Source: a virus. Taken from it: a stretch of DNA of 26,866 nt. The first letter of the stretch is position 1, and each line of letters starts with the position of its first letter. The DNA lies in the IMG/VR virus record IMGVR_UViG_3300037151_000043, positions 1 through 26,866 of that record; one strand, 5' to 3'. Under the pieces are notes generated by a model, which saw only the letters and a list, made by a program, of their open reading frames with translations, was not told the origin of the DNA and did not search any database. Below are positions 6,009 to 26,079 of this stretch, one piece after another. The translations under genes and the position numbers were made by a program.

Positions 6009-6737
6009 ATGTCACTGCCGGGCCTGCAGGGCTATGTGGCATTCCCGCCCGTCACCCCCGACATCTTCGGACCGATCGTCTCCGCCGGCGAAGTCGCCGA
6101 CGCCATGGAAACCACCCTCCAAACGTGGTCGGCCACCTACATCGCCGAGATGGCCGCCCGGACCGGCCTCAACCAGATGCAGCCGTTCGGCAGCTGGGAA
6201 GCCGTCTACGAATACCGGGCCCTCCCCGCCGACCTGAGCGCCGCCTGCTGGGTTCTCGTCCCGACCACCGACCCGCGCCGCACCCCGGCCAAGCAGGGGG
6301 ACGGCACCTACCGGGCCGTGTTCATCGCCCAGGTCAACCTGGTTGTCTTCGGCACCGACTGGCGGTCATCCCGGGACCTCGTTTACGCCTACGCCGCAGC
6401 GGTCAACGCCGCCGTCCTCCAACACGGATCGCTCGGCGGGTTCGCTTCGAACACCAGATGGCTTGGCGGGTCGACCAAAGAGATCGACCACCAAAGGGTC
6501 CGGACAATCCAGGCCGCCACGCTCGGCTACGCGGTCACCGTCGAGAACGTCGTCGACACCAACACCGGCCCCGCCTCGTCGGTCCCGCCCGGCACCAGCT
6601 CCGGACCCACCGTCGAAACCGTGAACGTGCAGGTGGACGACTACCCCGTCGACCTGGGCCTCCCGAAAACCCGCACCACCACAGCCGCCGCCGCCTCTAC
6701 GAGCACGGCGACTGCCATCCCGACCGTCGAGGAGTAA
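6009..6737 (+). CDS. Putative tail terminator / tail completion protein
   Basis: A 242-aa protein placed between the head-tail genes and the sheath, where contractile-tailed phages usually encode the protein that caps the tail tube. The middle shows the alternating beta and helix pattern of tail terminators (AVFIAQVNLVVFGTDWRSS, a helix around LVYAYAAAVNAAVLQ, then TIQAATLGYAVTVENVVD). The C-terminal 60 residues are Thr/Ser/Pro/Ala-rich and look disordered. The start is ATG 6009 with GGGGAGG seven bases upstream. No diagnostic motif was found, so the role is inferred mainly from position and fold-like pattern. Confidence 0.55.
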   Translation: MSLPGLQGYVAFPPVTPDIFGPIVSAGEVADAMETTLQTWSATYIAEMAARTGLNQMQPFGSWEAVYEYRALPADLSAACWVLVPTTDPRRTPAKQGDGTYRAVFIAQVNLVVFGTDWRSSRDLVYAYAAAVNAAVLQHGSLGGFASNTRWLGGSTKEIDHQRVRTIQAATLGYAVTVENVVDTNTGPASSVPPGTSSGPTVETVNVQVDDYPVDLGLPKTRTTTAAAASTSTATAIPTVEE

Positions 6738-6740
6738 CCC

Positions 6741-6953
6741 ATGCCGGCAACCCAAACGTACGTGTCGGTCGCGGAGTTCGCCATCTCACCCTCCGCGGCA
6801 GGGACGGTCTGCCCCGGCGACCCCGTCACCCTCACCCCCGCCGAAGCCGCCCCCTACGTGGCCGCCCGCCAGCTCGTCCTGCAGCAACCCGCGCCGTCGC
6901 CGACGACGACCAAGACCGTGTCGGCCGCACCTCCCGAAGGAGACCCCCAATGA
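6741..6953 (+). CDS. 70-aa protein of unknown function before the sheath
   Basis: A short reading frame whose start follows GAGGAG, with its stop codon overlapping the sheath ATG (ATGA), so it is probably translated and coupled to the sheath. The sequence begins MPATQTYVSVAEF, has a helix-like stretch TPAEAAPYVAARQLVLQ, and ends in a Pro/Thr-rich tail. No known domain is recognised. It could be a small tail accessory protein or a translational leader for the sheath. Confidence 0.65.
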   Translation: MPATQTYVSVAEFAISPSAAGTVCPGDPVTLTPAEAAPYVAARQLVLQQPAPSPTTTKTVSAAPPEGDPQ

Positions 6954-8455
6954 GCTCAACCGCTCCTGGCACCACCGTCGAGGTGTCGGCCGCCGCCCTC
7001 CCAGGCGCATCAGCCCAGTCCACCGGCGCCTTCTTTGCTGTGGGTCTCACCCAGCGCGGCCCGGTCGGCGTGCCGATCATCCTCACCAGCCTCCAGGACT
7101 ACGTGAACCTGTGCGGCACCCGCCAAACCTACAGCCCCCTGTACGACTGCGCAGACCTGTTCTTCTCCTCAGGCGGGGCACAGATGTACGTCTCCCGGAT
7201 CGTCGGCCCCGCGGCCACGACCTCGACGGTCAGCCTCAGCGACCGGGGAAGCACGCCGCAGCCGACCCTGCAGGTCCAATCCAACGGGCCCGGTGTCGCC
7301 GGCAACAGCCTGACCGTGTCGGTCATCGCCGGCCCCGTCGCCGGCACCTACGTCATCCAGATCTCCATGTCCGGCCTCGTCGTCGAAACCTCCCCACCGC
7401 TGCAGACGACATCTGACGCGGTGAACTGGGGGCAGCTGATCCCGGTGTCGGTCAACAGCCCCAGCTCGAAGTACGTGACGATCACCGACCTCGCGTCCAC
7501 CAACCCGGCACCGGAGGACCAGCCGGCCCTCATCTCCAACGTCGCCCTCTCCGGCGGCGCCGATGACAACACCGACGCCGGCGACACCCAGTACGAAGCC
7601 GGCCTCCTCGTGTTCACCCCGGCCATGGGCCCCGGGCAGGTCGCCTGCCCCGGCCGGACCACCACCGCCGTCTACACCGCCCTCCTCAACTTCGCGCTCG
7701 CCACCAACCGGGTCGCCCTCCTCGACGCCGTCAACGGAGCCTCGGCTGCGACGATCGTCACCGCGGCCACCGCCTGCCAGGAGTCCGCCACCGACCCGTC
7801 ATACGGGACGATGTGCGCACCGTGGATCACCTGGCCCGGCATTCCCACCGGCACCGTCGTCCCAGCATGGCCACGCCAGATCCCGCCTTCGGCCGCGACG
7901 GCTACGGTGATGGCCGTCAACGACGCCTCCAACGACTGCAACATCGCCGCCGGCGGCAACAACGGCATCCTCAGCCAGGCGCTCGGTGTCGTGCAGAACT
8001 TCGTGGACTCCGACCGGGCCGCCCTCAACGCGGCGGGGGTGTCAGTGTGGCGGGCGGTGTACGGCAACGTCACCCTCTACGGCTACGAGTCGTTGGCCAC
8101 CGACCCCCGCTGGACGGACCTGGCCAACGTGCGGTTCCGGATGGAGCTCATCAACGACGGCCAGGTCATCGGCAACAGCTTCGTGTTCTCGCAGATCGAC
8201 GGCCAAGGCAAAATCTTCACCGCCTTCAACGGTGCCCTGTCGGCCCGGCTGGCGACCTACTACGCGTCGGGGTCGCTGTTCGGTGCGACCCCGGCGCAGG
8301 CGTATTCGGTCAACACCGGCCCCAATGTGAACACGCCGCAGACGATCACCGCCCGCCAGCTCAACGCCATCGAGTCGGTGGTCATGTCGCCGTCGGCGGA
8401 CGCCGTGAATATCAACATCACCAAGTACCTGGCCGACCAGTCCCTCAACACCTGA
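6950..8455 (+). CDS. Tail sheath protein (contractile tail)
   Basis: This 501-aa protein is the contractile tail sheath. The start chosen is ATG 6950, overlapping the previous stop and preceded by GAAGGAGA. A much longer upstream extension in this frame is an Arg-rich shadow of the tail terminator gene and is rejected. The N-terminus has the sheath pattern (PGTTVEVSAAALPG, then STGAFFAVGLTQRGPVG, a YVNLCGTRQTYSPLYDCADL segment, and GGAQMYVSRIVGPAA). The C-terminal domain is also typical (VSVWRAVYGNVTLYGYES, FRMELINDGQVIGNSFVF, and a closing VNINITKYLADQS). Contraction of this protein around the tube drives it through the envelope. This is the strongest evidence for a myovirus morphology. Confidence 0.93.
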   Translation: MSSTAPGTTVEVSAAALPGASAQSTGAFFAVGLTQRGPVGVPIILTSLQDYVNLCGTRQTYSPLYDCADLFFSSGGAQMYVSRIVGPAATTSTVSLSDRGSTPQPTLQVQSNGPGVAGNSLTVSVIAGPVAGTYVIQISMSGLVVETSPPLQTTSDAVNWGQLIPVSVNSPSSKYVTITDLASTNPAPEDQPALISNVALSGGADDNTDAGDTQYEAGLLVFTPAMGPGQVACPGRTTTAVYTALLNFALATNRVALLDAVNGASAATIVTAATACQESATDPSYGTMCAPWITWPGIPTGTVVPAWPRQIPPSAATATVMAVNDASNDCNIAAGGNNGILSQALGVVQNFVDSDRAALNAAGVSVWRAVYGNVTLYGYESLATDPRWTDLANVRFRMELINDGQVIGNSFVFSQIDGQGKIFTAFNGALSARLATYYASGSLFGATPAQAYSVNTGPNVNTPQTITARQLNAIESVVMSPSADAVNINITKYLADQSLNT

Positions 8456-9789: not shown

Positions 9790-12693
9790 ATGTCGGTCTC
9801 CTCGTCAACGTCGAAGGTCACGATCACTCTCAACTTGGCCGGGCAGGCGGCGACGGTGAAGGGGATTACGACGGTCACCGGGGCGATCTCGGACATGACC
9901 GACGCCATCACCGAAGCCAACGAGCAGCTGTCGACTTCGGCCGAGGCCGCTGCTACGAAGGTTCAGGCCAGTGCCGACACCATCGGCGAAGCCGCGGACG
10001 CTGCGGGTGCCGATTGGAACGCGGCCGCTGACGAGATCACGGCCGCGGCCGCCCGGATGGCTGAGGCCGCCGAGACGGCCGCTGGGGCGTCGGAGGACAT
10101 GGCCACCCGCAACACCGCGGCGGCTACCACCTCCTCGACGAGCGTCATGTCGCTCCTCACGTCGTTCAAAACGCTCGCCCTCGGCGCCTCCGTCTACATG
10201 GGCGTCAAGGCCTACTCCGGCTATACGAGCGGCCTCGTCAAGCTGTCGACCCTGGCCGGGCTGACCCAGCAGCAGGTGAAGTCGCTCAACAAAGAGATCA
10301 TGAACACCGCCGTCGCCCTGCGGCAATCGCCGTCTTCCTTGGCCCAGGGGGCGTACTCGCCGGCCTCTGAGCGGTTTGGTCTCAAGGGCACCGAGAACGT
10401 GCTGGCCCGGGCGTCACAGCTGGCCAACATCGGAGGCAACCCCCTTTCTGGCCCCGACGGCACCTCGTATGCGCTGTCGACGATGCTGCAGACGCTCGGA
10501 TTGAAGCCGACCGCCAGCAACGTGGCCCGCGTCGCCGCCATGATCCGGGGCACCACCAGCGCCGGCGACATGCAACTCTCCGACCTGACCAACGCCATGT
10601 CGACCGGTGTCCTGAACATCGGCAAGACCTACGGGATCAATCCTGAGGCCAGCCTCGGCGCCCTCGCCTACTTCACCTCCCAAGGTGTGCCGGCCCAAGA
10701 GGCCGCCACCCGGATGCGCATGACCGAGAGTCTCCTGGTGGGCCAGACGTCGCAGGCGTCGAAGTACGGCGAGCTGATTGGGATAACTCCCGATCAGATC
10801 CAAGGTTCGGAATCGGCACTTTCACAACAGCTGTTCGGGCTCGGCCTGCGGCCCACCCAGCTGGCCAATGTGGTGCGTCAGGGCCCGGGAGGCCTAGCCA
10901 ACGCGTTCAATCTTTTGAACAAGTCGATGGCCGGCCTGCCTCCCGACCAGCAAGAGGCCCTGTGGGCGAAGCTGTTCGGCGGCGGCCGCACCGACGCCAC
11001 CGCCATGACGTTGGCGCAGGGTGCGATGTCGGGGAAGCTGATGGGCTTCACCAACGCCGTCGTCGGCGACTCGACCGTCGGCGGACTTAATACGGCCGAC
11101 GCTCAATGGAATGCCAGCCCCACCGGCCAGCTCAAGGCATTCGATACCGAGCTGCAGGTTGTCGCTACCGAAATCGGGTCGGTGGTTACGCCGGCCCTCG
11201 AATCGCTTATGAACGTCCTCGGCCCGTTGCTGAACCTGTTCGCTCAGCACAAGATCCTCCTCGACGCGCTGGCCATCCTGATCGGCGGGGAACTGGCCTT
11301 CAAGCTCCTCGGCCTGGTCAAAAACCTGAAAATGGTGTCCTCGGCGATCAGCATGATCCGTGACGCCAAGGCGTTCGAGGGGATCATCTCCGGGGCGACT
11401 ACCGCCGAGTCTGCGGTCGGCAAGCTGATCCAGAAGCTTCTCGGTGTCTCCGGCGCGGCGAAGGGCGCGGCGGGCACCGCGGCCAAGACAGGTGCCGGGG
11501 ATGCGGCCGGCGACGTTGCGGCCGGGACCGGTGTTGGGCTTGGCGCCACCGCCGGCCTCGTCGCCGCCGCGGTGATCATCCCGCTCGCCGCCACAGCTGG
11601 CGCTCTCGAACTCGCCCACCTGACCGGCCAGTACAACAACATGCTGGCCAAGAAGATGGCCGCCTCGGTCACCGAGAAGAACATCCTCAAGGCCCAGCAG
11701 GCGTTCTCCCATCAGAACGTTGGCGGCCCGACCGGCGGCCACTTCGCGATGGTCAACGGCCGGTGGATGTATGTCGGTGCCGGCGGCGACGAGACCATGA
11801 GCCCAACACCGAAGGGGTACGCGGCCGGCGGGATCACTGACGGGCCGGTGGCCATCGCCGGCGAAGGCAACCCCGCCTACCCCGAATATGTCATCCCCAC
11901 CGACCCCGCCTACCGGGCCCGCGCCGTCGCCCTTTTCCAATCGCTCGGCGGCGAACTCGTCCCCGGATCCATGACCCCCTCCGCCGTCCAATCCCTACCC
12001 GGCGCCGAACGCACCTTGGCCAACACCATCGGCACTGTCGTACCCGGCGGCCTGTTCCGCCAGATGCTCCTCAACCTGGTCGGCAGCGTCTTCTCCATCG
12101 CCGCCGGCACCGGAGGCGGTAGCGGCGGCGGCGGGAGTTCGATCCTCAACGCCATCACCGGCGGAGGCGGCTCAGCATCACAGAACCTGACCCTCGGCCA
12201 GCGGATGGCAGCCGCGCTCGGCTGGACCGGTCTCGAATGGACCGACCTGCAGCAGCTGTGGCAACGCGAGTCAGGGTGGAACCAGTACGCCAAGAACCCC
12301 AAGTCCGGCGCCTACGGCATCGCCCAAGCGTTGCCGGCCTCCAAATACCCGCTGGCCGGCCAGGCGGCGGGCGGGTCGTCACCGAACGCCCAGATCCAAT
12401 GGGGTCTCAACTACATCAGGTCCCGCTACGGCGACCCCGAAGGGGCGTTAGCCCACGAAAACCAGCTCGGCTTCTACGAGCAGGGCGGCATCATCCCCTT
12501 CGGATCGTACGATTCCGGCGGGTTCCTGCCGCAGGGCATCAGCGTCGCCCACAACGGCACCGGCGCACCCGAACCCGTCGGAGCGGCCGTAGCCGGCTCC
12601 GGCGGCACGACGGTGCTGCAAGTCAAGTTGGACAGCAAGGTCATCGCCGAAGCCGTCTACACCGACCTGCGCCGCAAGGCGGCCCGACGGTGA
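9790..12693 (+). CDS. Tape measure protein with C-terminal lytic transglycosylase domain
   Basis: This 967-aa protein sets tail length and likely helps penetrate the wall. The start is ATG 9790, eight bases after GAGGAG. The upstream GTG at 9781 overlaps that site. Residues 30-120 are Ala/Thr/Glu-rich and probably coiled coil. Residues about 140-450 resemble the phage minor tail/tape measure domain (GYTSGLVKLSTLAGLTQQQV, a GALAYFTSQGVPAQEAATRM repeat-like helix region). Hydrophobic stretches occur around LDALAILIGGELAFKLLGL and GATAGLVAAAVIIPLAAT. A YAAGGITDGPVAIAGEG segment with PEYVIP is common near tape-measure C-termini. Residues about 805-905 form an SLT-type domain, with Glu827 in LWQRESGWNQYAKN as likely catalytic acid and SGAYGIAQALP following. 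The stop overlaps the next start (GTGA). Confidence 0.9.
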   Translation: MSVSSSTSKVTITLNLAGQAATVKGITTVTGAISDMTDAITEANEQLSTSAEAAATKVQASADTIGEAADAAGADWNAAADEITAAAARMAEAAETAAGASEDMATRNTAAATTSSTSVMSLLTSFKTLALGASVYMGVKAYSGYTSGLVKLSTLAGLTQQQVKSLNKEIMNTAVALRQSPSSLAQGAYSPASERFGLKGTENVLARASQLANIGGNPLSGPDGTSYALSTMLQTLGLKPTASNVARVAAMIRGTTSAGDMQLSDLTNAMSTGVLNIGKTYGINPEASLGALAYFTSQGVPAQEAATRMRMTESLLVGQTSQASKYGELIGITPDQIQGSESALSQQLFGLGLRPTQLANVVRQGPGGLANAFNLLNKSMAGLPPDQQEALWAKLFGGGRTDATAMTLAQGAMSGKLMGFTNAVVGDSTVGGLNTADAQWNASPTGQLKAFDTELQVVATEIGSVVTPALESLMNVLGPLLNLFAQHKILLDALAILIGGELAFKLLGLVKNLKMVSSAISMIRDAKAFEGIISGATTAESAVGKLIQKLLGVSGAAKGAAGTAAKTGAGDAAGDVAAGTGVGLGATAGLVAAAVIIPLAATAGALELAHLTGQYNNMLAKKMAASVTEKNILKAQQAFSHQNVGGPTGGHFAMVNGRWMYVGAGGDETMSPTPKGYAAGGITDGPVAIAGEGNPAYPEYVIPTDPAYRARAVALFQSLGGELVPGSMTPSAVQSLPGAERTLANTIGTVVPGGLFRQMLLNLVGSVFSIAAGTGGGSGGGGSSILNAITGGGGSASQNLTLGQRMAAALGWTGLEWTDLQQLWQRESGWNQYAKNPKSGAYGIAQALPASKYPLAGQAAGGSSPNAQIQWGLNYIRSRYGDPEGALAHENQLGFYEQGGIIPFGSYDSGGFLPQGISVAHNGTGAPEPVGAAVAGSGGTTVLQVKLDSKVIAEAVYTDLRRKAARR

Positions 12694-13403
12694 CCGCCCC
12701 CAACCTGTGGATCCAGCCCACCGCCCCGGCCGGCACCCAGGTCGGCTTCGGCCTGTCCGACGACAGCTCAATGACCCGCTCCGGCGGCACCGGGGCCGGC
12801 GGCTGGCAGCTGATCGACCGGCCCCGCAACGCCGCCACCACCGAATGGGTCGACTGGGGCCCGTTCCAACTCACCATATCCCTCATCATCGACGGCTACG
12901 GCAACGGGATCGGCGCCCCGACATCGATCGAAGGCCCAATCGCCCTCGTCGAATCGTGGGAAACGCCGGTCGCGTCGTCGAGTCCTCCGCTGCCGCCGAT
13001 CCTGGCGGTGTCCGGTCCGGTGCCCCACAACGAGCTGCAGTGGGTTCTCCAGAATCTCAACTGGAAAGAAGCGATCCGCGACCCCGTCACCGGAGTCCGC
13101 TACCAGCAAAACCTCGACGTGGTGCTGTGGCAGTACCTGCCGCCGTCGATCACCGTCCAAAACTCCACCCCGGCCAAAGCGGCCCAGGCTGCGGCTTCGA
13201 CCACGACCGGGGCGCCGCAGCGGACCTACACGGTGAAGGCCGGCGACACGCTGATGACGATCGCCGCCAGCCTGTACGGCACCTGGCAGTACTGGACCCT
13301 CCTCGCGAATGCGAACAGCATCCGTGACCCCAACACCATCCTCGTGGGCCAGACGCTGCAGGTGCCGCCGAAGACAACGAACCCGCCGGCACTCGCGCCA
13401 TGA
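12690..13403 (+). CDS. LysM-containing baseplate/tail protein
   Basis: A 237-aa protein starting at GTG 12690, which overlaps the tape measure stop. The long upstream extension of this frame is an antiregister shadow and is excluded. The C-terminal 50 residues are a LysM domain (RTYTVKAGDTLMTIAASLYG, then a WTLLANANSIRDPNTILVGQ stretch ending LQVPP). LysM binds peptidoglycan N-acetylglucosamine. Proteins of this kind occur between tape measure and hub in many contractile-tailed phages (XkdP and T4 gp53 type), where they connect tube and baseplate. The N-terminal part (QLTISLIIDGYGNG, VESWETPVASSS) is beta-rich. The stop overlaps the hub start (ATGA). Confidence 0.85.
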   Translation: MTAPNLWIQPTAPAGTQVGFGLSDDSSMTRSGGTGAGGWQLIDRPRNAATTEWVDWGPFQLTISLIIDGYGNGIGAPTSIEGPIALVESWETPVASSSPPLPPILAVSGPVPHNELQWVLQNLNWKEAIRDPVTGVRYQQNLDVVLWQYLPPSITVQNSTPAKAAQAAASTTTGAPQRTYTVKAGDTLMTIAASLYGTWQYWTLLANANSIRDPNTILVGQTLQVPPKTTNPPALAP

Positions 13404-14842
13404 CCGCGGTTGTGTACCCGACGACCGGGTTCGACCCTGACTTCTCGGTCTCGTCGCTGGTCATCAACGGCTACCAGGCCACATCCGATGTCACCGCCGC
13501 CATCTCCGAGGCGCAGCTGGAGCGGACGATCGTCGGGGCTTCCACCTTGACGTTGACGCTCGAGGATCCGTTCCGGACGATCACGAACAGCAACCTCGCC
13601 CAAATCCAAGCACCCGCCGCCCCAGCAGGCGCCGCACCCGCCGCCCCCGGCTCCGGTGCCGCGTCGAGCGAGCCGTACAACCCGACCACCTGCGCCATCG
13701 AGGACGCCCAGGGGAATGTGGCCGCTTTCGCGTTGGCGGAGATCTCGAAGGACCAGGACGAGCTGACCCTCACCTTCGAGGACCTCTACATCAACCAGCT
13801 CCGCTACCAGTACGCCCAGGGCGAGGGGTATCTGACGGCGTCGGGGACGATGACCCGGGCCGACCTGATGGTCCAGATCATCAAAAAGACCGGCCTCAAC
13901 ATCCCCACCGTCGCGGTACCCGACACGTTCGCCGGGATCCAGCAGGTCAAGGACGACACCGGCGACTCGATGTGGGGAACCACCGACGAGCCGAACGAGG
14001 ACGCCTGGACCTGCCTCACCCGCCTCGCCAACGACGTCGAATGGCGCTGCTTCTCCAACGGCCAAGCGATCGTCATCGGACCCGACCCCTGGCTGCTCAC
14101 GCTGCCGATGGGCGCCACCTTCCAGGAACACGTCGGCGGCTGCGACGACATCGACTTCGACTGGGACATCAACCAGGCCCAAGCGACCGCCACCGTCTAC
14201 TGCAACACCGCCCTCCTCACCTTCCCGCCCGGGGTGCCGGCCACCCTTAAGAACATGGGTGTCGCCAACGGCATCTGGCTCACCTCCGACATCTCCCGCA
14301 GCCTGTTCCAACCGGACGCCCAGGTGGGTGTGGTCCAGCCGCAGCCGTTCCTCACCGAAGAACAGTACGCCGCCGCGGCCGACGGCACCTCCGACACCGA
14401 CGTCAACCCGACCCCCACCGCCTCCGACACCGCCGACGTCACCGGCGCCGCCGCCGTGGCCAACAGCGCGGTGGCCTACGCCCTCAAGCAGGTCGGGAAA
14501 CCGTACATTTGGGGTGGGATCGGCCCGGGCGGCTACGACTGCTCCGGGCTCACCTACGCCGCCTACCTGTCGGCCGGGCTCCCCATCCCACGCACCGCCG
14601 CCGAACAGTCCAACGGCCTCCCGCACGTGTCCATGTCCGACCTGGTAGCCGGGGACCTGATCTTCTACGTCGGCGAGGGTGACGGTGGCACCGTAGCCAA
14701 CCCGGGGCACGTGGTCATGTACATCGGCGGCGGCAACGTCGTCGAAGCCGAAATGACCGGCACCAACATCCAAACCGGCCCCATCCCCCCCGGCGCCCTG
14801 GGCGCAGCCCGGCCCAGCCTCACCCAGGGGACGGCGGCATGA
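13400..14842 (+). CDS. Baseplate hub protein with NlpC/P60 peptidase domain
   Basis: A 480-aa protein: residues 1-340 resemble tail hub proteins (XkdQ / gp27-like), with LVINGYQATSDVTAAISEAQ, a LTFEDLYINQLRYQYAQG segment, TRADLMVQIIKKTG and WTCLTRLANDVEWRCFSNG. Residues about 355-480 are an NlpC/P60 domain: AYALKQVGKPYIWGG, the nucleophile Cys381 in GYDCSGLTYAAY, and His437 in NPGHVVMYIGGG. This domain cleaves peptide cross-links of peptidoglycan, and at the tail tip would open the wall during entry. A linker at residues 72-82 is encoded by the 33-bp repeat shared with the scaffold. Both ends overlap neighbours by ATGA. Confidence 0.88.
   Translation: MTAVVYPTTGFDPDFSVSSLVINGYQATSDVTAAISEAQLERTIVGASTLTLTLEDPFRTITNSNLAQIQAPAAPAGAAPAAPGSGAASSEPYNPTTCAIEDAQGNVAAFALAEISKDQDELTLTFEDLYINQLRYQYAQGEGYLTASGTMTRADLMVQIIKKTGLNIPTVAVPDTFAGIQQVKDDTGDSMWGTTDEPNEDAWTCLTRLANDVEWRCFSNGQAIVIGPDPWLLTLPMGATFQEHVGGCDDIDFDWDINQAQATATVYCNTALLTFPPGVPATLKNMGVANGIWLTSDISRSLFQPDAQVGVVQPQPFLTEEQYAAAADGTSDTDVNPTPTASDTADVTGAAAVANSAVAYALKQVGKPYIWGGIGPGGYDCSGLTYAAYLSAGLPIPRTAAEQSNGLPHVSMSDLVAGDLIFYVGEGDGGTVANPGHVVMYIGGGNVVEAEMTGTNIQTGPIPPGALGAARPSLTQGTAA
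13613..13645 (+). repeat. 33-bp exact repeat, copy 2 (Ala-Pro linker)
   Basis: This is the second copy of the PAAPAGAAPAA-encoding segment found at 2229-2261. It interrupts the N-terminal part of the hub protein as a flexible linker between LAQIQ and a Gly/Ser-rich stretch. The two copies match at all 33 bases, including synonymous third positions. Confidence 0.9.
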
Positions 14843-15144
14843 CGACCTCGGACAAATACGGCGGGTACCTCAACGAACTCGTCTTCAAAAAGCGGTCACC
14901 GAGGCCGACGATGACCGGCCCGCAAGAAGGCACCATCATCACCGTCACCGGGACCGGGGCGGGCACGACGTGCATGGTGCAGATCTCGTCGGTCCAGTCG
15001 GCCGGCGGGTACGCCTGCGGCCCCGCCCCCTGCCCGGCCGGCGCCGAGGTCGGCCAACGGGCCCTGGTCGTGTTCGTCGGATCCGGCGTCGGCGACCCCT
15101 GGGTACTCGCCGTGACCACCGTGCCCGCACCACCAGGCTTCTAA
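14839..15144 (+). CDS. Small OB-fold baseplate/spike protein
   Basis: A 101-aa protein coupled to the hub by an ATGA overlap. It shows an OB-fold-like strand pattern typical of gp5/gpV N-terminal domains: GPQEGTIITVTGTGAG, TCMVQISSVQSAGG, VGQRALVVFVGSGVGDPW followed by VLAV. The pair of Cys in YACGPAPCPAG could form a disulfide or bind metal. It has no beta-helical spike tail, so it may be a minimal spike or an adaptor at the tip of the hub. Function is inferred from fold-like pattern and position between hub and wedge. Confidence 0.6.
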   Translation: MTTSDKYGGYLNELVFKKRSPRPTMTGPQEGTIITVTGTGAGTTCMVQISSVQSAGGYACGPAPCPAGAEVGQRALVVFVGSGVGDPWVLAVTTVPAPPGF

Positions 15145-15160: not shown

Positions 15161-16897
15161 GTGTCGACGATCAACCCGGCCACCGGCCTCCCGTACCCCA
15201 ACACCACCACGACTGCTACCGCACCGGCGACGATCCCGACCGACACCGGCGGCTACATCAGCCTCCCCGTCACCGTCGACCCCTACCAGCTGACCGCGGA
15301 TGCGTTCGGGTTCATCGCCAACCAGATCCCCGGCTGGGTCCCCCCCGAAGGCGCCCTCGAGACGTGGATCATCTACGCCTGCGCCCGCATGGTCGCCCAG
15401 CTCGCCCAGACCGCAGCCCAAGTCCCCGACGTCATATTCGAATATTTGGGCGGCGCCCTCATGGGCGTCCCACCGAACCAGGGTGCCGCGGCGGAGTGTC
15501 AGACCACCTGGACGATGGTCGACACCTCCGGCTACACCGTCCCCGCCGGCACCGTCGTCGCCTTCGCCACCTCCGGCAACACCGTCGTCCAGTACGCCAC
15601 CCTCCAGGCCTTCTCGGTCCCGGAGGGCCAAACCTCCACCGCGGCCGGAGCCGTCACGGTCCAGGCGGCGGCAATCGGGGCTGCCGCGAATGGGATCGCG
15701 GCCGGTCCGATGGTCATCGTCGACCAGCTCGCCTTCGTCTCCTCCGTCACGTCCACCACCACCACGGCGGGCGGGGCGGACCCGGAGACGACCGCCCAGT
15801 ATTTGAACCAGCTGGCCGCCCGCTTCCAGCTCCTCACCCCCCGCCCCGTCCTGGCCGCCGATTTCGCGGTGATGGCCGCCCAGGTGGCCGGCGTGAACCG
15901 GGCGCTCGGGATCGACAACTACAACCCGTACGCCAACATGCTCACCGCCCTCGACGCCAGCTACGGGACGTCAGGCGCCTCTGTCGGCTCGTTCACGGCC
16001 ACGGCCAACTGCACGGTGGCCACCAGCAACGCCTGGGCGGAGACCGGCACCTACAGCCTCTCAATGGTGGCCACGGCCGGCGGGTCGATGACCTGCCAGT
16101 CCGGCTGGTATCCGATCGCCGGCGGCGAAACCTACACCGCCATGGCCTTCTTCCACGCCGCCACCGTCGCAGCCGAATGCGCCGTGGACCTGGTGTGGGG
16201 CGACGTCAACCAGAACGTCCTCTCCACCAGCGCCGGTACCACCAGCGATGATTCGACCGGCGGGGGAGTGCAGGTCACCAACACCGCCACGGCCCCCTCC
16301 AACGCCTCCTACCTGAAACTCCAGCCGAGGGTCACGGCCGGCTCCGCGGGCGAAACCCACGACTGCGACGAACGGGGAGTCCTCCTCGGCACCACGACCA
16401 CCTGGGGGCCTGGCGGGGCGCAGACCGGCCAGGAGCGGATGGTCACCGTCGTCCCCGTCGACGTCAACGGCAATGCCCTCACCGACGACGAGATGGCCGC
16501 CATCTCCACCGAGCTCGAGTCGCTCCGTGAAGTCAACTTCGTGGTCAACATCGTGCCCCCGACCTACACCGCCGTGAACGTCACCGCCGCCGTCGTCTGC
16601 CAACCCTCCGCCTCCCTGGCCACCGTCCAAGCCGCCGTCGTCACCGCCCTGCAGGCCTACCTGGCTCCGGGCACCTGGGCCGGCGGCGGGCAGATCCCGC
16701 CGGTCTGGCTCAACGACAACACCGTCTACTACCTCGACGTCGCCGGCGTGATCATCAACGTCCCGGGCGTCCACCACATCGTCGCCGGCTCCCTCACCGT
16801 CAATGGCGGCACCGCCGACGTGCCGCTCGACGGGCTGGCCGCCCTGCCGCAACCGGACATCAACGTCACGGTCACCGCGGCGGCGGCCGGCACCTAA
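15161..16897 (+). CDS. Baseplate J-like wedge protein with inserted carbohydrate-binding-like domain
   Basis: A 578-aa protein of the baseplate J (T4 gp6 / P2 gpJ) family, the scaffold of the baseplate wedge. GTG 15161 follows AGAGGAAGG. The N-terminal part has DAFGFIANQIPGWVPPEGA and a MGVPPNQGAAAECQTTWTM region, then SVTSTTTTAGGADPETTAQY and VLAADFAVMAAQVAGVNRA, all typical. Residues about 260-415 are an insertion resembling a CBM4/9-type jelly roll: TGTYSLSMVATAGGSMTC, IAGGETYTAMAFFHAAT, CAVDLVWGDVNQNVL, APSNASYLKLQPRV and TTTTWGPGG. The wedge sequence then resumes with RMVTVVPVDVNGNALTDDE and a beta-rich C-terminus. The insertion probably faces outward and may bind host glycans. Confidence 0.85.
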   Translation: MSTINPATGLPYPNTTTTATAPATIPTDTGGYISLPVTVDPYQLTADAFGFIANQIPGWVPPEGALETWIIYACARMVAQLAQTAAQVPDVIFEYLGGALMGVPPNQGAAAECQTTWTMVDTSGYTVPAGTVVAFATSGNTVVQYATLQAFSVPEGQTSTAAGAVTVQAAAIGAAANGIAAGPMVIVDQLAFVSSVTSTTTTAGGADPETTAQYLNQLAARFQLLTPRPVLAADFAVMAAQVAGVNRALGIDNYNPYANMLTALDASYGTSGASVGSFTATANCTVATSNAWAETGTYSLSMVATAGGSMTCQSGWYPIAGGETYTAMAFFHAATVAAECAVDLVWGDVNQNVLSTSAGTTSDDSTGGGVQVTNTATAPSNASYLKLQPRVTAGSAGETHDCDERGVLLGTTTTWGPGGAQTGQERMVTVVPVDVNGNALTDDEMAAISTELESLREVNFVVNIVPPTYTAVNVTAAVVCQPSASLATVQAAVVTALQAYLAPGTWAGGGQIPPVWLNDNTVYYLDVAGVIINVPGVHHIVAGSLTVNGGTADVPLDGLAALPQPDINVTVTAAAAGT

Positions 16898-16968: not shown

Positions 16969-17430
16969 ATGTCGTTCACCAACTACGCCGACCAGCAGAT
17001 CATCAACGCCGTCCTCGCCGACCAGGCGCTCGGCAATCCCTCCACCTGGCAGATGGGTCTCTCCACCACCGCACCCTCCCAGGTCAAAGGCGGCGCCACC
17101 CCGTACTGGAATTTCACCGAACCGACCTCGGGGACCGGCGGCTACGGCCGGCTCGCCGTCGCAGCCAACACCACCAACTGGGGTGCCGTCGGATCCCCCC
17201 CGACCGACGGCTACTCCGGCACCAACCTCGTCGCCGTCACCTTCCCCGGCAGCTCCGCCGCCTGGGCGTCGGGGGCGACACCGCTGGTGGCGATCGGCTG
17301 GTGGGACTCGGCCACCGTCGGCGCCGGGAACCTGTGGATCTTCGCCCCGCTCGCACCCACCGTCACCGTCTCCGCCGCCGGGGTGACCGTCCTCTTCCCC
17401 GCAAGCGCCTTAGTCGTCACCAACGACTGA
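16969..17430 (+). CDS. Tail fibre-like / minor tail protein
   Basis: A 153-aa protein with GGAGG before ATG 16969. Its pattern is that of a widespread small phage tail protein: an N-terminal helix (YADQQIINAVLADQALG), WQMGLSTTAP, a GGYGRLAVAANTTNW segment, AVTFPGSSAAWASG, and IGWWDSATVGAGNLWIFAPL. Proteins of this type attach to the baseplate or fibre base and are often followed by fibre genes, as here. Exact function is not known. A role in connecting the wedge to the adhesins is an inference. Confidence 0.6.
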   Translation: MSFTNYADQQIINAVLADQALGNPSTWQMGLSTTAPSQVKGGATPYWNFTEPTSGTGGYGRLAVAANTTNWGAVGSPPTDGYSGTNLVAVTFPGSSAAWASGATPLVAIGWWDSATVGAGNLWIFAPLAPTVTVSAAGVTVLFPASALVVTND

Positions 17431-17473: not shown

Positions 17474-19033
17474 ATGTCGGGCATCGTCCAGCACACCTCG
17501 AAAGCCGAAACCGGATCCAACGTCACCGTCTCCCTGACCAACCCGGTCACCGACGGCAACACGGTCCTCATCTTCGTCCACCTCGCAACCGCCGCCCCTG
17601 ACACCACCCCCGCGGGATGGACCGAACTCGGCCAAGCGACGGCCGGCGGGTCGACGCTCACCGCCTACGCCAAGACCGTCACCGGCACCGGCGACGGAAC
17701 CTTCAACCTCACGTTCAGCACCAGCTCCGTCTACCAGGCCGGCTTCTGCGAGTACGCCGGCCTGGTCGAGGGCCCGTCGGTCCTCAACGTCCAACCCTCA
17801 ACCACAGCGTCAGGGTCCACCCAGGCGTCCGGTGCGGTCACGGTCAGCAACATCGGTGCGGTCCTGGTCGCCATCACCGCAAACGCCACCGTCGCCTACA
17901 CCGGCGGGTGGGCCGGGGCCACCGAGATCGGCTCCCCGATCGGCGGCGACCTGGCCACCTGGGCCTCGACGTTCCTCGCTGCGACGGGCAGCTACAACCC
18001 GACCGCGACCCTGGCCGCCAGCGGGGCGCATGAGCCGCTCGGGCTCACCGTGGTCCTCGACGCCCCCTACGAGGCCGCCACCTCCGTCTCCACGGCCACC
18101 GCCACGCCGGCGACGGTCATCATCTCCAAAGCCACCAGCCATTCGGCTAGCACCGCAACAGGCGCCCCGACGGTGTACGTGCTCGGCGAGTCCACCGGGG
18201 CGGCCGATTCGGCGTCGGTCGCTTTCGCTTTCCCGAACCTGATCCTCGAAACCTCCGCGGCCGCCACCTCGGCCAGCTCGGCGGTCGGGTCGCCGTACAA
18301 CCCGGGCGAGCAGCTCCCGCCGCCGCCTGAGCCGACGGTGGCGGACATCACCCTGCAGCTGTACGACGCCCTCGGCCCCATCCCGGGATTGGGTGTCGGC
18401 GACGACTACTTGGGCTGGCCGCTCCTGTGCTTTCTCGACGGGATCGGCCAGATCATCCAACGGATCGCCGACCTCGCCCAAGACACCGCAGGCGGGCCCG
18501 GCTGGTCAAGCCTGCTCGACCCCACCCGCTGCCCCCCCTACGCCCTGGCGTGGCTGGCCCAGTGCGTCGGCGTCACCTTCAACCAAACCCAATCCACCGC
18601 CGCAGCCCAGCTGGCCGCCATCCAAGCCGAGCAGGGATTCAACCGGGGCACCGTCGCCGCCCTGCAGAACGCGGCCGGCCAGTGGATGCAGCCGGGCCAG
18701 CAGGTCGTCATCTACGAACGGGACCCGGACCCGTACAGCTTCACCGTCGTCCTCCAGCTCGGCACCCTCGCCCCCGCCACCTACGGCCAAACCTCAGCCG
18801 AATACCCGACCTACGCCGAGCGGACCGCCGCCCGGTCCACATATTCGACCCCCTCCTACCCGCAGGCGCAGGTGCAGGCTGCTTTGGAGTCGCAGAAGCC
18901 GGCCGGGCTGCTGATGAACATCCAGATCGTCGCCGGCCCCACCTACGGGCAGGTCGGCGACGCCTACAGCACCTACGCCGCACGGCTGGCCGCGCTCCCG
19001 ACTTACGCCGACGTCGCCGTCTTCGAGCCCTGA
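17474..19033 (+). CDS. Tail protein I-like protein fused to an N-terminal adhesin-like region
   Basis: A 519-aa protein. Its C-terminal part, from about residue 290, resembles the P2 gpI / tail protein I family, which sits next to gpJ in the baseplate: WSSLLDPTRCPPYALAWLA, QAEQGFNRGTVAALQNAAG, PGQQVVIYERDPDPYSF. The family is usually near 200 aa, so the extra N-terminal 270 residues are unusual. They contain beta-sandwich-like sequence (LTNPVTDGNTVLIFVHLAT, PAGWTELGQATAGGST, a FNLTFSTSSVYQAGF segment) and Thr/Ala-rich stretches, joined by a Pro-rich linker near residue 280. Two 23-residue copies of a TYGQ-YxTYA motif lie at residues 436 and 490. The start is ATG 17474 with AGAGAGGA upstream. 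Confidence 0.7.
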   Translation: MSGIVQHTSKAETGSNVTVSLTNPVTDGNTVLIFVHLATAAPDTTPAGWTELGQATAGGSTLTAYAKTVTGTGDGTFNLTFSTSSVYQAGFCEYAGLVEGPSVLNVQPSTTASGSTQASGAVTVSNIGAVLVAITANATVAYTGGWAGATEIGSPIGGDLATWASTFLAATGSYNPTATLAASGAHEPLGLTVVLDAPYEAATSVSTATATPATVIISKATSHSASTATGAPTVYVLGESTGAADSASVAFAFPNLILETSAAATSASSAVGSPYNPGEQLPPPPEPTVADITLQLYDALGPIPGLGVGDDYLGWPLLCFLDGIGQIIQRIADLAQDTAGGPGWSSLLDPTRCPPYALAWLAQCVGVTFNQTQSTAAAQLAAIQAEQGFNRGTVAALQNAAGQWMQPGQQVVIYERDPDPYSFTVVLQLGTLAPATYGQTSAEYPTYAERTAARSTYSTPSYPQAQVQAALESQKPAGLLMNIQIVAGPTYGQVGDAYSTYAARLAALPTYADVAVFEP

Positions 19034-21592: not shown

Positions 21593-21958
21593 ATGGCCAA
21601 CAACATCATGGCTGCGACATCGACGATCCCGCAGAGCCTTTTCAACGGGCAGCTCGCCGGGACCGGCGCCACCCTTCTCTACACCGTCCCCGCCGACTCG
21701 TCCGCCGTCGCCAAGCAGGGCGCAGCCTGCAACGTGTCGGGGGCTGCGGTCACGTTCTCGCTCGGGATCGTCCCCTCCGGCGGCAGCTGGGACGGCACCC
21801 ACACCATCATCAGCGCCTGGGCGATCGAGCCCGGCAACAGCCTGCCGTTGACCGACTACCTGGCCGGCGCCTGCCTTAACGCCGGCGACATGATCTACGC
21901 CCAAGCATCGGCCGCGGTCGCCATCAACGTCCTCATCACCGGGACGGTCATCAACTGA
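21593..21958 (+). CDS. Small beta-rich fibre-associated protein
   Basis: The 121-aa protein begins at ATG 21593, with GGGAG upstream; the longer upstream reading of this frame is a Pro-rich shadow of the previous gene. It is beta-rich (LLYTVPADSSAVAKQ, VSGAAVTFSLGIVPSGG, IISAWAIEPGNSLPLTDY, AGDMIYAQASAAVAINV) and resembles small phage proteins placed among fibre genes. No catalytic motif is visible. Its stop overlaps the tailspike start, so the two are translationally coupled. It may be a fibre-attachment or capping protein. Confidence 0.6.
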   Translation: MANNIMAATSTIPQSLFNGQLAGTGATLLYTVPADSSAVAKQGAACNVSGAAVTFSLGIVPSGGSWDGTHTIISAWAIEPGNSLPLTDYLAGACLNAGDMIYAQASAAVAINVLITGTVIN

Positions 21959-24900
21959 TGGCCAACTCCCTCCAGCAGGCACCCACGCTGCTCAACCCGC
22001 TGGCCACCGTCGACGCCGCCACGACCATCGCGGCTGCGGCCGCGGTGTCGAAGCTGGCCATCGACAACAACCTGTCCGAGATCGCCGGCGCCGGCGCAGC
22101 CGCCGTCCAGGCCGCCCGCGGCCATCTCAACGTCACCAACTTCGCGATGCCGTTCGCGTCAGGCGACACCACGGGCGCGACCGACACGGCCGCATACCAG
22201 TACTACGCCATCCTGTGCGCAGCCAACGGCGGCGGGTCGATCTACTTCGCCGGCGGCCAGTCCACCCCGTACTACCTGCTCATGGGGCAGACCATCCCCA
22301 ACAACACCCGCCTCTACTCCGACGTCGGCACCACCTCCGGATCCGGCGGCGCCCATGTCATCGAGTGGGTGTACCCGGCGTCCGGCGGGGCTTCGTGCGG
22401 GTTCGGCTCGACCACCTGGTTCTCCGCAGCGACCGAGCCGACGACGTCGGATACCAGCATCATCGTCGACCACCTGTCCATGAACCTGAGCAACGCCTGC
22501 GTGATCCTGACCGGCTGCGTGCTCGGCGACGACGGGGTCACCATCAGCGTCCCCTCCGCGGCCGATCTGGCGCCGGGCATGCTGGTGTCGGACATCACCA
22601 ACTCCGCCGCCTGGATCGGCGCGGTGGTCACGGCCGCATCCAACGGTGCCACCGTCACCTCGTTCACCGGCACCCAGACGCTCAGCGCCAACCTCGGCAC
22701 CGCCGGCTCAACGCCCGTCCCGCTGACCTCAGGCGACTTCCCGACGTCGGGCACGATCCGTGTCCAGACCGGCACCAACGCCAACGGCTGGGCGACCTTC
22801 ACCTACAACGGCGTTACCGCCACCGGCTTCGAGAACGTCACCTATGTGTCCACCGTCGGCGGCGGCACCACCCTGGCCACCGGAAACATTGTCAGCATGC
22901 TTGGCGACGCCAATTACGGCTACGGCGCCTACCTGGCCGCCGGGCTCACCGGCACCACCACCACCACCTCGGTCAACACCGAAGCCAACACCATCACCGT
23001 CACCAACAGCGGCGCCGCCGCCTACCCGACCGGCGACTCCGGCACCACCCTCACGTTGCAGTTCTCCCCGCACGGAATCTGCACCGTCGGCTACCGCAAC
23101 GTCGTCGAATGGACCGTCATCGAAGCCCCCCAAGGCTGCGGGATCGTCCTGTCCCAGGCCACCGCGGCCGGATATCCGACCAGCAACAACGTCGAAGAGA
23201 ACCGCTTCTACAACAACCTCGTCAACTACCCCAGCTCGAAGTCCGCGGCTATCCCCGCCCTCGGATCGGCCATCCCCGGCAGCCGTGTCCCGATCGGCGG
23301 CCAGCACGGCTTCTGGGTCAACAAATGGGTTGGTGGCCAGAACAACTCCGACTCGTTCTGCATGAACAACGTCGTCGTCCAGTCCGGAGACATCCCCTTC
23401 AAGTTCGACGCCTCCGCGGACTGGAAGATCGCCCACAACCATCCGTGGTCATGCTACGGGCCGGCCTACTTCTACCTGGCCGGCATGTCGGGCACCACCT
23501 TCGACGACAACACCATGGACATGGCCCTTCCCTCCGCCGCGCCGGCCGGGATCACCTACTACGGCATCTACGGCGTCTGCTCTGGCGAGCACTTCGGCGT
23601 CAGCCAAGCCACCGGCGCCAACTCCATCAGCCGGAACCGGCCGCACCTCGAAGAGAACAACTACCTGGCCAACACCACCTACCTGTTCCTCGAAGGGCCA
23701 GCCAGCCCGAACACTGTCGCCTACGTCGCCCTGGCCATGAACTCGTACCAGCAAGACAACAAGGGCACCGGCACGAGCATGGCCTACCAGTTATCTGGCA
23801 ACACCGGGACCATGTACGTCAACATCGGATCGTCAGAGATCGGCGCCATCGGCACGACCATCGTGGCGGGACCTCCGACTACTGGTAACGGCGGGATCAT
23901 CGGCACGACCGCCAACGTGTCGGTCACCGCAGGCGGCGGGGGCAGCTCGGCGGCCGCCGGGACGCTCCCAGTCACCCCGGTGACAACCTCGATCTACCAG
24001 GCCCTGTCAACGGACTGTGTGCTCCCGTCCGAGGGCGGCTCCGCCCAGACGATTGTCCTGCCGGTGACACCGGTAGCCGGGCAGCTGATCGTCATCTCCA
24101 ACCCTGGCTCCGGCCTGGTCAGCATCTCCCCGTCACCCAGCCAGGGCATCCCCGGCGCCACGACCCACACCGACGCCGGCTGCGGGATCACCGCCGGCAG
24201 CAATCAAATGTCGGACCCGACCGGCAACCTCGTCACCGGAGACGTCGGCTCCTTCGCCGTCAACACCCACATCCCCGCCGGCACCACCATCGTCTCGGTC
24301 GCCAACCCGGGCACGACCAGCGCGGTCGCAACCTTGTCGGCCAACGCCTTGACCACCCCGTCGGGCGGCACCGGATCAGTGTTGGTCGCCGCGCCCATGA
24401 CGATCTACAACAACACGGCCGTCCAGCTCGTATGGGACACCACCTACAGCGCCTGGCGGTACGCAGACCGGCCAGTCGTGTCGCTCGGCGGCGGCGGCCT
24501 CTCCGTGGTCGGCAACGCCCTGGAGACCCTCAACTCGGCCGGCGCCACCCGCAACACCCTCGACGACGGCTCCGGCAACATGACCTCGGCCGGGCTGCTG
24601 ACCGCCACCGGCCTGTTCGTCACCGGCTACGGCAACCTGAAGATCAACGGCCGCGGCGACGGCGGCCCCACCAACAACGGCAACGCCTATGTGACGGCTT
24701 CGGTCACCTGCACCATCAACGCCACCACCGCCGTCACCACGACAGCCAGCTTCACGTCCGCCGGCGTCACCACCGGCATGACCGTGTCCGGCACAGGTAT
24801 CCCGGCTGGGACGACCGTCACCGTCAACTCGGCCACCTCCATCACGCTCTCCCAGGCTGCCACCGCCTCGGCCACCGAGACCCTCGTTTTCGGGACGCTA

Positions 24901-26079
24901 CCGACCAACCCCCCGTTCAGTTCAACGACGGCGGTATGGCCGACCGGTGCTCTGGTCTTCGACGAGGCGACGCCTGCGCTGTGGCGCACCCCGAACGGCA
25001 CCATCTACACGGGGCAGCCGCCCGTCGACTGGGTCAACGACCACCTCCCCTTCGCCAACAGCGCCGGCACCGGACTCGCCAAGAGTGCCCTCGGTGTCTA
25101 TTCGGTCAGCTACGGCACCACCGGCACCACCGCAGCCGCAGGCAACGACTCGCGGTTCACCACCCTGGCCAGCGAAATCGCCGCCATCCCAGCGATCGAC
25201 ACCACGGCCACCGACATCAAGGCCCCCGGCGCCCAAGCAGCCGGCGCCAAAGGACTCCCCGCCGACGCCGCCCATGTCCATCCCGGCGGCCTGTACACCA
25301 TCACCGCCACCCAGCAATGGCAGATCCCGGCCGGCGCCACCGCCCTCAAAGTGGTCTGTGTCGGCGCCGGCGGCGGCGGCGGTGCCGGCGGCACCGGAGC
25401 GGTCGGCGCAACCGGGGCCGGCGGCGCCGGAGGCGGCGGCGGAGGATCGGGGGCCACCCTCGAGGCGTTCCTCGCCGGCCTCACCTCCGGCGACTACCTC
25501 ACCGTCACCGTCGGGGCAGGCGGAGCCGCCGGGTCCAACGGTGGGAACAGCTCCGTCGCTTCGGGTACCACGTCGCCGATCCAGACCATCACCACCACCC
25601 AGGCCGTCGGCGGCGGCCCGGGCACAGCCGGGTCGGGCACCACCGGCGGCAACGCCGGCGAGTACGGCAAGAACGCCTCCACCAGCTCCAACGCCAGCGT
25701 CCCGGGCGTGGGCGGAGGGGGCGGAAGCACCGGGTCCGGTAACTCCGGCGGCGGCGCTTTCGGGTTCACCGGAGGTGCCGGCGGCGGCGGAGGCGCCGGC
25801 GGGGCGGCCTCATCGGCCGGCGGCGGCGGGGGCGGCACAGCTGGCGCCTCCGGATCTCAGAACGCGGCAGGCACAAACGGCACCGTCGGTACCGCCTCGG
25901 CCAACACGGGCAACAACAACGGAGAGGTCGGCGGCAACGCCAGCGCAGCGACGGCCTACGGGGCTGGCGGCGGCGGCGGGGCCGGCGGGGGAGGGGCCTT
26001 CACCGGCGGGACCGGCGGGACCGGCGGGACCGGCGGGGCCGGCGGCCCGGGCGTCGTGTACATCCAGGTCATCGGCTGA
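21958..26079 (+). CDS. Large beta-helix tailspike/fibre with glycine-rich C-terminal domain
   Basis: A 1373-aa protein and the likely main receptor-binding protein. Residues about 60-620 look like a right-handed beta-helix of the pectate-lyase type: a start like GDTTGATDTAAYQYYAILCA with GGGSIYFAGG, then NTRLYSDVGT, and later NNVEENRFYNNLVNYPS, HGFWVNKWVGGQ and SISRNRPHLEENNYL. Three copies of a domain with a T-I-PAGTT-type motif lie near residues 206, 757 (NTHIPAGTTIVSVANPG) and 936 (VSGTGIPAGTTVTVN). Around residue 1106 comes AAHVHPGG, then the glycine-rich domain LYTITATQQWQIPAGATAL followed by GGGG-dense sequence to the end. No catalytic pair can be assigned, so depolymerase activity is possible but unproven. 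Stop of the preceding gene overlaps its ATG. Confidence 0.82.
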   Translation: MANSLQQAPTLLNPLATVDAATTIAAAAAVSKLAIDNNLSEIAGAGAAAVQAARGHLNVTNFAMPFASGDTTGATDTAAYQYYAILCAANGGGSIYFAGGQSTPYYLLMGQTIPNNTRLYSDVGTTSGSGGAHVIEWVYPASGGASCGFGSTTWFSAATEPTTSDTSIIVDHLSMNLSNACVILTGCVLGDDGVTISVPSAADLAPGMLVSDITNSAAWIGAVVTAASNGATVTSFTGTQTLSANLGTAGSTPVPLTSGDFPTSGTIRVQTGTNANGWATFTYNGVTATGFENVTYVSTVGGGTTLATGNIVSMLGDANYGYGAYLAAGLTGTTTTTSVNTEANTITVTNSGAAAYPTGDSGTTLTLQFSPHGICTVGYRNVVEWTVIEAPQGCGIVLSQATAAGYPTSNNVEENRFYNNLVNYPSSKSAAIPALGSAIPGSRVPIGGQHGFWVNKWVGGQNNSDSFCMNNVVVQSGDIPFKFDASADWKIAHNHPWSCYGPAYFYLAGMSGTTFDDNTMDMALPSAAPAGITYYGIYGVCSGEHFGVSQATGANSISRNRPHLEENNYLANTTYLFLEGPASPNTVAYVALAMNSYQQDNKGTGTSMAYQLSGNTGTMYVNIGSSEIGAIGTTIVAGPPTTGNGGIIGTTANVSVTAGGGGSSAAAGTLPVTPVTTSIYQALSTDCVLPSEGGSAQTIVLPVTPVAGQLIVISNPGSGLVSISPSPSQGIPGATTHTDAGCGITAGSNQMSDPTGNLVTGDVGSFAVNTHIPAGTTIVSVANPGTTSAVATLSANALTTPSGGTGSVLVAAPMTIYNNTAVQLVWDTTYSAWRYADRPVVSLGGGGLSVVGNALETLNSAGATRNTLDDGSGNMTSAGLLTATGLFVTGYGNLKINGRGDGGPTNNGNAYVTASVTCTINATTAVTTTASFTSAGVTTGMTVSGTGIPAGTTVTVNSATSITLSQAATASATETLVFGTLPTNPPFSSTTAVWPTGALVFDEATPALWRTPNGTIYTGQPPVDWVNDHLPFANSAGTGLAKSALGVYSVSYGTTGTTAAAGNDSRFTTLASEIAAIPAIDTTATDIKAPGAQAAGAKGLPADAAHVHPGGLYTITATQQWQIPAGATALKVVCVGAGGGGGAGGTGAVGATGAGGAGGGGGGSGATLEAFLAGLTSGDYLTVTVGAGGAAGSNGGNSSVASGTTSPIQTITTTQAVGGGPGTAGSGTTGGNAGEYGKNASTSSNASVPGVGGGGGSTGSGNSGGGAFGFTGGAGGGGGAGGAASSAGGGGGGTAGASGSQNAAGTNGTVGTASANTGNNNGEVGGNASAATAYGAGGGGGAGGGGAFTGGTGGTGGTGGAGGPGVVYIQVIG
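26002..26037 (+). repeat. Four tandem copies of a 9-bp repeat (Thr-Gly-Gly)
   Basis: The unit ACCGGCGGG occurs four times without a mismatch in the tailspike's glycine-rich end, encoding four Thr-Gly-Gly units. It is in frame and could vary in copy number. Confidence 0.95.

Follow-up and report, generated by a model that had tools for sequence, protein, structure and literature searches.

Described systems and the gene neighbourhood

It is already known that carbohydrate-binding modules (CBMs) occur in baseplate proteins, even in a J-like wedge protein. In the contractile system AlgoCIS, the J/gp6-like wedge protein Alg11 contains CBM-fold modules that have been proposed to aid attachment (PMC8894135, PDB 7aeb). 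These are CBM1 and CBM2, which make up domain IV (residues 278-643) and form a spike cage. In the Bacillus cereus myophage Vp4, CBM folds are found in the wedge protein Gp119 and are missing from the homologue of a related phage; Gp119 binds and decorates host cells, whereas the CBM-less homologue does not (PMC11406892). Gp119 is a different wedge protein from J, being A511 gp105-like (baseplate wedge 3), and its modules are CBM16-like and Xyn10B-like. The 'evolved Dit' proteins carry CBMs in the loops of a baseplate ring protein, with a content that varies between close phages and an affinity that is lower than that of the receptor-binding protein (reviewed in PMC7291167), but they are siphophage Dits of non-contractile tails and not J proteins. 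Away from the baseplate, RcGTA head spikes bind the host capsule (PMC13420450). For J itself, the wedges of A-1(L) and diffocin contain two J homologues each, and there are six wedges (PMC10966104, PMC10996793). In diffocin the dimerization domain pairs with the neighbouring wedge, forming an iris ring (PMC10996793).

The window, which is the whole stretch of DNA analysed here, is a 26.9-kb IMG/VR virus record. Its gene order runs from the head genes through the tail sheath, the tape measure, a LysM protein, an NlpC/P60 hub and a small gene to baseplate J, which is followed by a fibre-type gene, gpI (Tail_P2_I) and then the tail-fibre genes. The tail sheath of a contractile tail (6125..8455, + strand) matches PHROG 279 (tail sheath, E 2e-13) and, weakly, Pfam Phage_sheath_1 (E 0.0048). 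Given this gene order and the sheath gene, the virus is most likely a contractile-tailed phage. The hub (13400..14842, +) carries an NlpC/P60 peptidoglycan hydrolase domain (Pfam NLPC_P60, E 3.2e-19), and the small gene directly before J (14839..15144, +), which had no family match in Pfam or PHROG, stands where a sheath initiator or a spike would be encoded, a role suggested by gene order only. The gene between J and gpI (16969..17430, +) encodes a fibre-type protein, which Pfam PF23140 (E 1.5e-16) places in the Gp80 / GP4 'fiber I' family. The gpI-like wedge partner (17474..19033, +; Pfam Tail_P2_I, E 3.4e-5) has a long N-terminal extra region: the Tail_P2_I match is restricted to residues 344-430, and the first ~200 residues resemble a separate, fused N-terminal domain. 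The LysM-bearing tail/baseplate protein (12237..13403, +; Pfam LysM, E 2.7e-9) directly precedes the hub, and its counterpart may be A-1(L) gp16, a LysM adaptor that connects hub to wedge (PMC10966104).

The host is likely actinobacterial, given the G+C content of ~70% around J, the peptidoglycan enzymes of the hub and the fact that Gordonia phages are the only annotated relatives of J. A search for prophage copies in bacterial genomes found none, and a search of plasmids gave no match.

The J protein and its inserted module

The J gene is a single uninterrupted reading frame (15161..16897, +) with a GTG start, and encodes a baseplate J (T4 gp6-like) wedge protein of 578 aa. Pfam Baseplate_J covers residues 94-255 (E 2.6e-19), PHROG 6 'baseplate wedge subunit' matches with E 1.5e-18, and the core of the AF2 model (pLDDT 86 and pTM 0.62 for the full protein) resembles A-1(L) gp31, diffocin CD1371, phiCD508, Mu gp47, phi812 and T4 gp6 in Foldseek. 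By profile match and J/gp6 fold it belongs with the Baseplate J wedge proteins; the J profile was also compared with the PDB. With domain names assigned by homology with diffocin (PMC10996793), the predicted secondary structure of the N-terminal part (15161..15922, +) comprises a helical core-bundle, a trifurcation-type beta region and the start of the dimerization domain, up to GIDNY. According to alignment and secondary structure, the C-terminal part (16421..16897, +) begins with a short linker, after which the dimerization domain resumes at QERMVTVVPVDVNG.

Between these parts lies the inserted module (15923..16420, +), which was delimited by alignments, AF2, Foldseek and PHROG 16363 and is referred to here as type A. 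The original prediction that a module interrupts J is borne out by the alignments and by the relatives that lack it, with the correction that the insert spans 166 residues (255-420) and not ~155, and is followed by a short linker that runs to QERMVTV. In the AF2 model of J the module sits between J strands 247-252 and 426-433, with flanking linkers that are less certain, and by homology, in the diffocin nomenclature, the insertion loop would belong to the C-terminal dimerization domain. The two parts of J are continuous in insert-less J proteins, and the Gordonia phage J of ~386 aa aligns across both with the middle missing. The nearest relative (L009), whose core is 52% identical in the tree alignment and 57% in the best BLAST segment, has a six-residue loop at the insert site and reads ...VLDGYNP-ANGTAG-NARMVTVAAVD.... 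The G+C content is ~69-70% in the insert and in the flanks alike, and for this reason base composition gives no signal of a recent acquisition. Exact peptide patterns derived from the single sequence found no close relatives in viral or bacterial collections; alignment-based patterns were required, and scanning IMG/VR with an alignment of Gordonia-phage J proteins gave 58 J loci.

The AF2 model of the module, built with 21 aligned relatives, is a confident CBM-type beta-sandwich (mean pLDDT 91.6, pTM 0.87) with ten strands, in agreement with the alternating strand pattern that had been read from the sequence. In Foldseek against the PDB, the leading matches are CBM22 domains of xylanases (4xup, 1dyo and 1h6x), with E values of 8e-8 to 3e-7. 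CBM4-2, CBM16 and CBM61 come next, and over all these matches E ranges from 8e-8 to 2e-5 and TM from 0.6 to 0.75. By predicted fold, the module falls within Pfam CBM_4_9 and CAZy CBM4, 16 and 22 (E 8e-8, TM up to 0.75). The proposed CBM4/9 type holds, then, for the fold and for the profile links described below, but not as a direct family match, since the window copy does not reach the curated cut-off of Pfam CBM_4_9 and is too distant to score. The link in sequence passes through tail proteins. A profile of six J inserts alone picks up tail-protein domains in three loci (L024, L019 and L050) with E 2e-21 to 8e-13, compared with a best value of 1e-3 in the reversed-sequence control, and these stretches score 34.9, 28.3 and 35.1 bits, respectively, against CBM_4_9, where the cut-off is 25.9; only these bridging relatives, and not the window copy, exceed it. 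When the PDB was searched by sequence with the J inserts, or with profiles stripped of the CBM-positive rows, no CBM was found, the results being chance matches or none. With those rows included, the best match was CBM22 (E 0.0015-0.004), which is not independent of the bridge because the CBM-positive rows are in the profile.

Among viral structure models, the Foldseek neighbours of the module are J-like proteins, CenC-type CBMs and minor tail proteins, one of them annotated 'Baseplate protein J-like', and the same module is present in actinophage minor tail proteins. PHROG 16363, a family without known function, matches the insert with E 9.3e-11 (residues 22-156 of the stretch). Three sister J inserts match NCBIfam GTA_spike_fiber (NF048003) over their full length with E values of 3e-6 to 8e-6, at 16-28 bits and hence under the curated cut-off of 36 bits; that domain belongs to a head spike and not to a baseplate. 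A CBM4/9/16/22-like fold for the module is supported by the predicted structure and the profile comparisons.

The J loop is a recurrent insertion site

Six further J proteins carry a comparable insert at this position, and the feature is therefore not a chance occurrence. Among the 52 J proteins that were aligned, 36 have a short loop at this site, as do the Gordonia phage J proteins, while seven have type A, four have type B (~105 aa), one has type C (~65 aa) and four have type D (~480 aa). An ordinary wedge domain in this region of related J proteins, the observation that would have counted against the original prediction, was looked for; the relatives have nothing or an unrelated domain there. 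The J core, with the insert left out, gave a tree in which L084 sits on a long branch and the type A label changes at least six times. This number is soft given the quick search and the many open forks, but three of the changes are forced by strongly supported branches. Exchange is independently indicated by two pairs of proteins: the inserts of L006 and L007 are 52% alike and their cores 41%, whereas L010 and L019 have cores that are 65% alike and modules of different types. Given that relatives are empty or carry different modules at the same spot, the J loop looks like a socket for swappable modules.

Type B (VNEVQRVAIDATGGTFTLTFGGQTT...) occupies this loop in L008:3676-4008, L012:3682-4011, L015:3676-4011 and L028:3676-4008. 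It has no Pfam match, and the proposal that it is the same domain as type A was rejected because a profile comparison gave no match. It is a widespread virion domain, found in hundreds of IMG/VR loci, and a single protein (L187) has as many as 11 copies in tandem; in the best 79 of 410 confirmed loci it occurs, frequently as tandem repeats, in 92 reading frames, of which J accounts for only 7 (some identical). The type D inserts (L031, L032, L041 and L043) are found in J proteins of up to 895 aa, that of L031 being cut by the contig end. Identity of type D with type A was likewise rejected, since the profiles matched only weakly, over 50 columns where D begins, and its second half gave no match. 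One 130-kb contig (IMGVR_UViG_3300046533_000294) contains two J loci, L011 at 92947-100383 and L017 at 28445-35884. Both have a type B insert, and the J of each is identical to one from another contig; either the assembly merged two viruses or there are two tail modules.

The position of the loop separates it from the insertions described in other contractile systems. The wedge proteins of AlgoCIS and Streptomyces coelicolor have their extra domains before J profile position ~160, whereas in the window the insert is at ~248, showing that the insertion sites differ. Coincidence with the Alg11 site in particular (~159) was considered and rejected, and the window protein, a phage J with one module in its dimerization domain, is not of the Alg11 type with CBMs at the domain IV site. 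The J protein of the Streptomyces coelicolor contractile injection system (PDB 9gtp_1K) has an insertion of ~250 residues at profile positions 159-162, and this site, close to that of the Alg11 CBMs, is a second hot spot for J insertions.

Proposed role and alternatives

The reading that we consider rather probable is that J carries a horizontally exchanged module of the CBM4/9/16/22 fold, and that a ring of about 12 copies would grip a host glycan with low affinity and so aid adsorption. The analysis itself shows the insertion, its predicted fold, the way in which modules recur and replace one another at a single site, and the sheath gene; copy number, outward exposure, glycan binding and the role in adsorption are inferred. 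Several copies around the baseplate, as had been proposed, are implied by the position of the module in the wedge, and with two J proteins in each of six wedges, as in A-1(L) and diffocin, their number would be about 12. Inserted in the dimerization-domain loop, each copy of this ring could provide a low-affinity hold on a surface glycan, such as wall polysaccharide, capsule or similar. Through many such weak contacts the baseplate would be drawn to the cell and set in the right orientation, in support of the receptor-binding fibres, before the NlpC/P60 enzyme of the hub and the tube cross the wall. The loop would act as a socket from which the module could disappear, to which it could return and in which other small domains could take its place, with the wedge undisturbed. 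The strongest support by analogy for adhesion comes from Vp4 Gp119, followed by the evolved Dits and Alg11. A putative accessory adhesion module that probably binds a host surface glycan seems the most economical reading.

The main rival, to which we give a clearly lower probability, is that the insert has no sugar ligand and serves as a spacer or docking domain in the structure, either anchoring the neighbouring fibre protein or bracing the wedge against the hub. Indeed, the J homologue gp31 of A-1(L) has an insertion domain that in one of its two copies holds the long tail fibre, while that of the other copy plugs a cleft of the hub (PMC10966104), and the wing domains of diffocin touch the hub hydrolase (PMC10996793). 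In A-1(L), a CBM of the neck fibre did not bind the host, and thus some phage beta-sandwiches of this kind are non-binding (PMC10966104). The residues of the module are also compatible with docking. Its family conserves scaffold-like positions (S13, E15, G42, P125 and D149), of which the Glu is Gly in the window copy, and in a HMMER alignment to 1dyo/1h6x no conserved counterpart was found for R25, W53, Y103, Y134, Y136 and E138, which we take to line the CBM22 cleft of 1dyo. Nonetheless, the ligand sites of CBMs vary considerably, and for this reason the missing cleft residues weaken membership of CBM22 and leave glycan binding possible. The insertions of A-1(L) and diffocin are, moreover, at another J site and are needed in assembly, while here the closest relatives have no domain or unrelated ones, and a module so easily lost or replaced among close relatives disfavours an essential structural role. 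The presence of the same module in unrelated tail proteins is what would be expected of an accessory binding module.

It is quite improbable that the insert is a passive, degenerate remnant of a decoration domain brought by recombination. The window copy has lost the near-invariant Glu of the family (Gly269), the GW tryptophan (Phe278) and the WT tryptophan (Gly369), but its frame is open, its fold is predicted with confidence by AF2 and the module is kept in several J lineages. Least probable of all is a protective or gating role, in which the modules would enclose the central spike until contraction opens the shell, like the 'spike cage' that two CBMs build in Alg11 (PMC8894135): the ~480-aa inserts of L031, L032, L041 and L043 are somewhat larger than Alg11 domain IV (366 aa), but the Alg11 CBMs are N-terminal to J profile position ~159 and the window module is at ~248, and one domain of 166 aa is small for a cage.

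Beyond the accessory adhesion proposed for the window phage, a broader and more tentative idea, which we regard as possible and on balance doubtful, is that the loop at about residue 255 is a general programmable socket of the wedge in many contractile phages, in which modules of types A-D are swapped and host range is partly set by a 12-module ring independent of the tail fibres. The literature searched contained no description of a phage J loop as a recurrent exchange site for unrelated modules. If the wedge has interchangeable surface modules, a second, multivalent layer of recognition would stand beside the contraction trigger. The J loop already accepts inserts of 65-480 residues in natural phages, so that versions of a single protein that have a module can be set against versions that lack one, and the role of such baseplate decoration is directly testable.

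Host recognition is usually credited to fibres and spikes. Among the genes at the end of the window, 21958-26079 encodes a protein of 1373 aa, whose sole match is a C-terminal Gly_rich_2 and which is possibly the main fibre or an adhesin.
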